Origin: an uncultured Opitutia bacterium
Lineage (GTDB): Bacteria > Verrucomicrobiota > Verrucomicrobiia > Opitutales > Opitutaceae
Length of the DNA stretch: 64,000 nt
Direction of reading: 5' to 3'
Assembly (NCBI GenBank): GCA_903827245.1
Contig: CAIKHO010000030.1
Coordinates: 62,001-126,000 of the forward strand
Each line of letters begins with the position of its first letter. Positions within the stretch are counted from its first letter, which is position 1. The position numbers and the translations under genes are program-made. The notes under the pieces were generated by a model. The model made no database searches, had not been told where the DNA came from, and saw only the letters and a list, made by a program, of their open reading frames with translations. This document shows positions 49,539-51,326 of this stretch, piece by piece.

Positions 49539-49597
49539 CGTTTGTAGTCCCGGCTTCAGCCGGTCCGAAATTCCGGCTGAAGCCGGAACTACAAACG
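49539..49597. repeat. Near-perfect 59-bp palindrome (TGTAGTTCCGGCTTCAGCCGG type)
   Basis: The left arm (CGTTTGTAGT, then CCGGCTTCAGCCGG) and the right arm (CCGGCTGAAGCCGG, then ACTACAAACG) pair over 24 of 25 positions. The loop is TCCGAAATT. Each arm also contains its own inverted core (CCGGCT..AGCCGG). It lies between the divergent glycosidase and sigma-factor starts. It may be a mobile palindromic element; no ORF. Confidence 0.85.
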
Positions 49598-49700
49598 GGG
49601 AGCCCTCAATACGTACCACCGCCCGTCCGCGCGGCTGCTGCTGGTCGGCATTCAAGATTTTATGTCGGATTTGCACCGGCGGCGGCGTTATTCTTGTTGA

Positions 49701-51326
49701 ATGAGCACGGATGATCAGGAGTTGATCCGCGACTACGCCGCGGACGGTTCGCAGGCCGCCTTCACGGCCCTGGTGAATCGTTATGTGGATCTGGTCTACA
49801 CCGCGGCCCGTCGGCAGGTACAGTCGCCGGACCTCGCCGAGGAAGTCACTCAGACCGTCTTCATCGCCCTCGCCCGTCACGCCCGCGAACTGAAGCCCGG
49901 GACACCGCTCGCCGCATGGCTCTACCTCGTCACCCGCCGGGCCGCCTTGGATGCGCTGCGCCGGGAATCCCGCCGCCTGGTGCGCGAACAAACCGCCTTT
50001 GAACTCGCCGCCATGAAATCGAATTCCCCCGCGTGGTCGCAGATCGAGCCCCTGCTGGACGAAGCCATGGAGGCACTCGCCGAGACCGACCGCCGAGCCA
50101 TCCTGCTGCGCTACTTCGAAAACCTGAGCCTGCGCGAGGTCGGCCAGAGGCTCGGCTCGTCAGAGGATGCGGCGCAAAAGCGCGTGGGCCGGGCGCTGGA
50201 ACAGCTCCGGGCCTTCTTCTCCAAGCGCGGGGTCGCGGTCGGCGCAACTACCCTCGCCGCCGACCTTGCCGGCGCCGCCGTCCAGGCCGCCCCCGTCGGG
50301 CTTGGACTCTCCATCTCTTCGGCCACGGCGCTGGTCGGCGCCGCCGGGCAGATCGCGACCCTCGAAACCGCCAAGACAATTGCCATGACCTCACTCCAGA
50401 AAACCCTCATCGTGACCACGCTCGCCACCATTGTGGGTGCGGGCCTGTACCAAGGCCATCTCATCAGTCGCCGCGACGACCAGATTGCGGAACTGCAACA
50501 GCAGGTGGACCAATGGCGCGGCGAAACCCGCCGCCTGCAGGCCGAGCGGGACAAACTCACGTCCCGGCTCGCGGACGCCCAGCGGGAAAGCGAAGCCGTT
50601 CGTACAAGGCTAGCCGGTAAAGAGGACGCCCTGCCGACCGGAGATCCGGTCGTGGATTCGGAGTTGAAGGCCATCTCCGCCCGGGTGAACACCCTCAAGG
50701 CGCAGCTCACCCAGCATCCGGAACAACAGATCCCCGAGCTTCGCTTTCTCACGGTTCAGGACTGGATGGATGCTGTCGCGAAACACAATCTGGACACGGA
50801 CGACGACGTCCGCGAAGCCCTCGCCGAATTGCGCGGCCACGCCAAAGCCAATTTCACCGAGCCCGTGTCGGGCGCTCTCTGGAAATACACCCAGGCCAAT
50901 GACGGAAAGCTACCCTCCGACATCATGCAGCTGATGCCCTTCTTCGATCCGCCGGTTGAGCCCGAATTGCTGCAGCGCTACGGCATCATGAACACCGGCA
51001 ATATCCGGGACCTACCGCTCTCTACCTTCGTCGTGGCCGAGATCGCCCCGCCGATGGATCCCAACGAAGGGACCCTCTACCTGAGCGGACCTAGGACCCA
51101 GCCCAACGAGGGCAACGTTTCGCTCAATCGTGGCAAATACAGCGAAATTACCGGCACGGTGCTCAGCGCGGTGGCGGAATTCATCAAGTCCAAGGACGCG
51201 CAACCCTTGACCGACCCGGCTCAGCTTCAGCCCTACCTCAAGACACCGGTCGATCCCGCGCGGCTCCAAGGCTTTTGGAATTCAAGCGGACTGCCGAATC
51301 ACCTTCACCCCACGTCCAACGACTGA
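49701..51326 (+). CDS. ECF sigma factor fused to a membrane-spanning C-terminal domain
   Basis: This is a 541-residue protein. Sigma region 2 is at about 18-90 (FTALVNRYVDLVYTAARRQV, AEEVTQTVFIALARHAR, PGTPLAAWLYLVTRR). Sigma region 4 is at about 118-175 (RRAILLRYFENLSLREVG, AAQKRVGRALEQLR). An Ala/Gly-rich link leads to one transmembrane helix (about 235-252, KTLIVTTLATIVGAGLY), a coiled coil (about 258-305) and an unrecognised C-terminal domain of about 200 residues that would be periplasmic. Classical ECF factors end near residue 190 and pair with a separate anti-sigma; here sigma and sensor-like parts are one polypeptide. Its targets are unknown. Confidence 0.85.
   Translation: MSTDDQELIRDYAADGSQAAFTALVNRYVDLVYTAARRQVQSPDLAEEVTQTVFIALARHARELKPGTPLAAWLYLVTRRAALDALRRESRRLVREQTAFELAAMKSNSPAWSQIEPLLDEAMEALAETDRRAILLRYFENLSLREVGQRLGSSEDAAQKRVGRALEQLRAFFSKRGVAVGATTLAADLAGAAVQAAPVGLGLSISSATALVGAAGQIATLETAKTIAMTSLQKTLIVTTLATIVGAGLYQGHLISRRDDQIAELQQQVDQWRGETRRLQAERDKLTSRLADAQRESEAVRTRLAGKEDALPTGDPVVDSELKAISARVNTLKAQLTQHPEQQIPELRFLTVQDWMDAVAKHNLDTDDDVREALAELRGHAKANFTEPVSGALWKYTQANDGKLPSDIMQLMPFFDPPVEPELLQRYGIMNTGNIRDLPLSTFVVAEIAPPMDPNEGTLYLSGPRTQPNEGNVSLNRGKYSEITGTVLSAVAEFIKSKDAQPLTDPAQLQPYLKTPVDPARLQGFWNSSGLPNHLHPTSND

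Follow-up and report, generated by a model that had tools for sequence, protein, structure and literature searches.

A probable membrane-tethered ECF sigma factor family with exchangeable outer domains and predicted self-recognition

Sigma factors are regarded as switches for gene sets. A gene at 49701..51326 on the plus strand of the window (the whole 64,000-nucleotide stretch of DNA analysed here) encodes an ECF sigma domain built into a 541-residue membrane-tethered protein.

Architecture and family of the tethered sigma factor

The first-pass annotation had treated the locus as a single gene whose product continues past its sigma regions, through a membrane helix and a coiled coil, to residue 541. 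Our analysis bears this out. The ORF (49701-51326) runs uninterrupted from ATG to TGA, Pfam sigma matches end by about residue 171, and fused, full-length orthologues are present in independent genomes, aligning end to end at identities of 65% (G002), 54% and 43% (G024), and 41% (G006). These orthologues rule out a frameshift or assembly join and, together with 94 fused relatives, make it exceedingly improbable that a frameshift, an assembly error or chance has fused two genes; nothing was found in favour of any of the three. Close relatives do not end at residue 190 but run on through the linker and helix. The nearest orthologue, that of G002, contains a single in-frame TAG near codon 51, so either the gene may be damaged in that genome or its sequence may be in error. 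The ordinary short ECF factors of the same genomes are distant relatives only (about 30% identity).

The sigma domain consists of region 2 (residues 24-92; 49770..49976, plus strand; PF04542, Sigma70_r2, E 1.4e-14) and region 4 (residues 119-171; 50055..50213, plus strand; PF08281, Sigma70_r4_2, over 119-169, and PF04545). These two regions alone, with a short linker between them, place the protein among ECF factors by Pfam and TIGR02937, and the structure of the domain matches SigW, SigE and SigK. Within region 4, on the same strand, lies the recognition helix SEDAAQKRVGRALEQL, whose residues D156, Q159 and K160 are assigned to specificity by their covariation with the -35 element described below. 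A Pfam scan of the 541-residue protein gave no credible match beyond residue 171. There follows an Ala-rich hydrophobic linker (residues 178-225; 50232..50375, plus strand) with a proline, P198, that is invariant in the 94-row alignment; this linker could form a second membrane segment. It carries no zinc-finger anti-sigma motif: HxxxCxxC after region 4 occurs in none of the 94 members, and the 541-residue window protein contains no Cys.

A membrane helix (residues about 227-252; 50379..50456, plus strand), recognised by hydropathy and alignment, begins with a conserved M(S/T)xxK signature. In the window protein it is only moderately hydrophobic, the 19-residue Kyte-Doolittle maximum being about 1.4 around residues 227-255. 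The peak is clearer in most of 92 relatives, where it typically reaches 1.6-2.7 and falls close to residues 225-245, which supports a C-terminal membrane helix across the family. The coiled coil named next in the annotation is assigned to residues 253-304 (50457..50612, plus strand) from the AlphaFold model, in which one continuous helix, 232-304, spans membrane segment and coiled coil; model confidence is low for residues 190-261. Translation might also begin internally, at the conserved Met that precedes the membrane helix; this was rejected, Shine-Dalgarno matches there being weaker than at control Met codons.

The C-terminal tail (residues 310-541; 50628..51323, plus strand), which in the window's subfamily follows the coiled coil, is modelled confidently by AlphaFold, with a mean pLDDT of 84 over residues 260-541. 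It had been described as unrecognisable, and it belongs to no Pfam family; against the PDB, Foldseek returned no match (best E 3.1) and VIA-align only weak helical ones. By eye, the tail contains an internal repeat at about residues 391-428 and 488-526. The charges flanking the membrane helix do not by themselves decide topology. In paralogues, the same place is taken by TonB_C (14 of 94), GspG or a complete serpin, the remaining tails being unassigned. TonB_C and GspG domains normally function in the periplasm, and the C-terminus is therefore probably outside the cytoplasm, which lends indirect support to the periplasmic placement first proposed. Individual examples include a serpin fusion (L082, 2279-4312; PF00079, 2.6e-94) and sigma factors joined to a TonB C-terminal domain (L005, 1054-2346; L063; L097).

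A search for homologues of the same architecture yielded the 94 fused relatives, drawn from 77 loci, which have in common the sigma domain, the Ala-rich linker with P198 and the hydrophobic helix, and which differ in their tails. Besides the window gene, the genome from which the window derives encodes four fused paralogues of its type, a truncated copy and more distantly related fusions, L007 among them. A profile built on region 4 together with linker and helix gave high-scoring matches to many genomes of the same taxonomic family and, here and there, to others in the phylum. Two distant, very long fused sigma genes (L137 and L138, frames of about 2300 residues) have TTTTTGTAACAATCCG upstream, perhaps a different type of self-promoter. 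No description of the family or of sigma-TonB fusions was found in the literature searched; the family may already bear an ECF group number, models of the numbered groups lying outside this comparison.

As the annotation had stated, there is no anti-sigma gene among the neighbours, which encode a glycoside hydrolase, a 3-keto-disaccharide hydrolase, an ABC transporter and an amidohydrolase; the sole zf-HC2 match in the genome sits on a different contig. In five of 11 compared relatives, a tail-only protein with its own membrane helix is encoded directly downstream of the sigma gene, and it is the only neighbour that recurs among these 11 as a potential sigma target; the window has no such adjoining gene. 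The shared tail suggests that this protein pairs with the sigma protein through the coiled coil. Upstream of the window gene, at 49543-49593, lies a REP-like inverted repeat, CCGGCTGAAGCCGG(A/G)ACTACA, present in the window as one pair only.

An upstream promoter and its covariation with region 4

Most fused genes are preceded, 40-50 bp before the start codon, by the motif TGTnCGGTTT-N16-TAT. One exact dyad is common to the upstream regions of 19 genes, compared with at most 6 in shuffles. A motif model comprising TTTTTGTnCGGTTTT, TAT about 16 bases on and an A-rich position, with the ATG 40-50 bases from the motif start, scores above 8 bits in 78 of 93 upstream regions, compared with 4.7% of shuffles, and its distance from the ATG is fixed. 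The model was trained on the very sequences that it scored, so the held-out test described below offers cleaner evidence. A clear motif is lacking in about one in six family members.

In the window, the conserved upstream motif takes the variant form TGTCGGATT (49663..49671, plus strand), a 9-mer that occurs once on the plus strand of the window and is read as the -35 element from its covariation with residues 156, 159 and 160. The -10 element GTTATT (49687..49692, plus strand) was assigned from its family-like spacing and from the column statistics of the 78 anchored promoters, which show TAT at columns 30-32 and an A-rich stretch at columns 39-40. The predicted promoter is thus TGTCGGATT-N15-GTTATT, and transcription is predicted to start a few bases before the ATG, giving a nearly leaderless mRNA.

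We then compared the bases of the -35 motif with all variable sigma residues. Position 7 is most strongly associated with residue 160 (z 45.7) and next with 156 (23.2), whereas position 8 is most strongly associated with residue 159 (24.3), which is also the strongest partner of position 10. The resulting rule for position 7 assigns C to proteins with K160 or R160; in all others, N156 is paired with G and D156 is paired with T. Q159 is matched by a G in position 8 and an A in position 10. The D156/N156 and T/G pairing is concordant in 49 of 49 genes, and a basic residue 160 coincides with C in 74 of 75. In a tree from which the helix was left out, D/N and T/G each change 13 times; on fully supported branches, independent pairs are concordant in 5/5 and 4/4 cases, which are too few for significance alone.

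The position-7 rule was fixed beforehand and applied to 54 genes from genomes outside its derivation set, where it predicted the base correctly in 51; the misses comprise two genes with C whose helices read D-x-x-x-V and one that combines D with G. By eye, another five loci all fit the code. The window gene (D156, Q159, K160) with TGTCGGATT also fits, having been part of the derivation set. Covariation of the -35 element with the recognition helix of the same protein, together with the held-out prediction, indicates that each sigma factor recognises its own promoter through region 4. For the window protein, the code predicts that replacing D156/Q159/K160 by N156/R159/M160 should shift the preference to TGTGCGGTTT. 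That many paralogues have the motif in common might also suggest the site of another shared regulator. We consider this very unlikely, given that the bases vary together with residues of the recognition helix that the very same gene encodes, that 51 of the 54 held-out genes obey the rule, and that the spacing from motif to TAT suits promoters of the sigma70 family.

Target sites and possible modes of action

In the window's genome, the pattern TTGTNCGGTTN{12,19}TA, representing the TGTnCGGTT form, occurs at 3 sites, each preceding a fused sigma paralogue. The window-type pattern TGTCGGATTN{11,18}GWTA occurs at two, one before the window gene and one within a hemL-like coding sequence. A looser search for the window-type -35 element found ten places, with promoter geometry only at the window gene and the truncated copy. 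That copy (L006, 1498-1872) ends before region 4 and retains a window-type TGTCGGATT promoter. As candidate targets, the other window-type matches were discarded: none of those examined is placed like a promoter, and several, such as the hemL-like one, lie within coding sequence. The comparison of relatives indicates that the factor recognises the promoter of its own gene; by these strict searches of its genome, it recognises almost nothing else.

Relatives extend this picture and limit it. All 13 sites in G024 precede fused sigma genes, as do 37 of 41 sites (hand count) across thirteen genomes that carry fused genes, one of the sites belonging to a frameshifted remnant. Among window-type sites in nine genomes, the five that have the spacing of the window promoter all precede fused genes; two further matches, inside coding sequences resembling TonB-dependent receptors, were rejected. 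In G004, G007, G010 and G014, most pattern sites lie away from fused sigma genes, and we therefore confine the claim of near self-only targeting to strict sites in the named genomes. Strict patterns also miss degenerate target promoters, so that a regulon of one gene is a minimum estimate. Tandem fused sigma genes were observed in G024 (L043-L046, contigs 102 and 55) and G052 (L047, contig 1). Most genes in such arrays have their own promoter copy, with differing -35 classes, which predicts cross-activation within a class.

The annotation had proposed a tethered factor that bypasses a separate anti-sigma factor and is either released by proteolysis or acts at the membrane. Covalent tethering and the lack of an adjacent anti-sigma gene stand; the interpretation left out the paralogous family, the gene's own promoter and the scarcity of other sites. 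Taking these together, we think it likely that the protein is a one-component ECF factor, tethered to the membrane, which activates its own gene, works without an anti-sigma factor and belongs to a family whose outer domains are exchangeable. The sigma domain would be anchored on the cytoplasmic side of the inner membrane, with coiled coil and variable domain in the periplasm, and linker, helix and tail would restrain or position it without an anti-sigma partner. A signal at the tail would activate the sigma domain, by proteolysis or through action at the membrane, and the active domain would bring RNA polymerase to TGTCGGATT-N15-GTTATT. Because this promoter drives its own gene, activation is predicted chiefly to yield further copies of the membrane protein itself, which would close a positive feedback loop. 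The outer domain could be either sensor or payload.

A more conventional reading, to which we assign a lesser but substantial probability, is that a site-1 and then an RseP-type site-2 protease release the factor to transcribe a normal regulon of envelope genes, with the usual autoregulation. Release by Prc and RseP is known for IutY and has been proposed for ECF52 (PMC8999054), and SCO4117 (ECF52) combines autoregulation with other targets (PMC5826349). The window's genome has an RseP-like M50 protease, but so do 14 of 14 control genomes. Against a wide regulon stand the strict scans: in the window's genome they reveal no further site resembling a promoter, and in G024 only sigma-fusion genes lie behind the sites; neither an anti-sigma-like zinc finger nor a FecR domain was seen.

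It is also conceivable, with a slightly lower probability, that the sigma part is a private transcription module that sets the level of an attached outer payload. Sites almost confined to the fused genes themselves (window's genome, G024), tails that swap freely while sigma domain, linker and helix are kept, the complete serpin and the downstream tail-only gene of five relatives would all suit such a module. Degenerate targets are possible, however, the tails might equally be sensors, and the many paralogues per genome argue for signalling. At its furthest, and only tentatively, the self-activating reading would make this a large family of self-transcribing membrane proteins, in which the sole natural promoter of each sigma factor drives its own gene and sigma factor and payload form a closed, autonomous unit. 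Membrane attachment might then favour action of each factor on the gene that encodes it, although the promoters of its paralogues are nearly identical. A widespread family that switches on mainly itself, with an anchor and interchangeable outer domains, would follow a different logic from that of a switch for gene sets. Natural variation in the family has moreover yielded a readable code between three region 4 residues and the -35 element, which helps to predict promoters of uncharacterised sigma factors.

Comparison with known systems

One close parallel is ECF52 (SCO4117 of Streptomyces coelicolor), which, like the window protein, unites an ECF sigma domain with a membrane helix and an outer domain in a single polypeptide and for which autoregulation has been suggested and proteolytic release proposed (PMC5826349, PMC8999054). 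ECF52 carries an anti-sigma domain of the zinc-finger type, ends in a proline-rich carbohydrate-binding tail and is said to be confined to Actinobacteria, whereas the window protein has no Cys and a different linker and belongs to a family with many exchangeable tails. The actinobacterial ECF48 and ECF53 likewise have C-terminal fusions with membrane helices (PMC8999054). They too are described with a zinc-finger anti-sigma domain; the window protein lacks the zinc finger between sigma domain and helix that characterises ECF52, ECF48 and ECF53, as does its family. In IutY (ECF243, Pseudomonas putida), too, an ECF sigma factor is joined to a regulatory part that spans the membrane, and Prc and RseP activate it (PMC8999054). 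IutY differs in carrying a fused anti-sigma factor and in serving an iron cell-surface signalling system; no Pfam match to the FecR-type domain typical of ECF243 was found in the window protein or among the 25 most frequent Pfam families of the 94 members.

Planctomycete ECF factors resemble the family in forming large paralogous sets, many with C-terminal extensions (WD40 or other), and some were recovered in detergent-soluble fractions (PMC8567305). The listing of 25 Pfam families from a scan of the 94 members includes no WD40 family. In ECF41 and ECF42, the extensions are soluble domains without a membrane helix. These factors (SnoaL_2 or TPR extension) are likewise one-component systems, the C-terminal extension acting as regulator (PMC8103513). 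Tethered ECF factors and autoregulation are already known; the present family is new in its exchangeable tails, its nearly self-restricted target sites and its readable -35 code, and in having no anti-sigma domain of the zinc-finger type.
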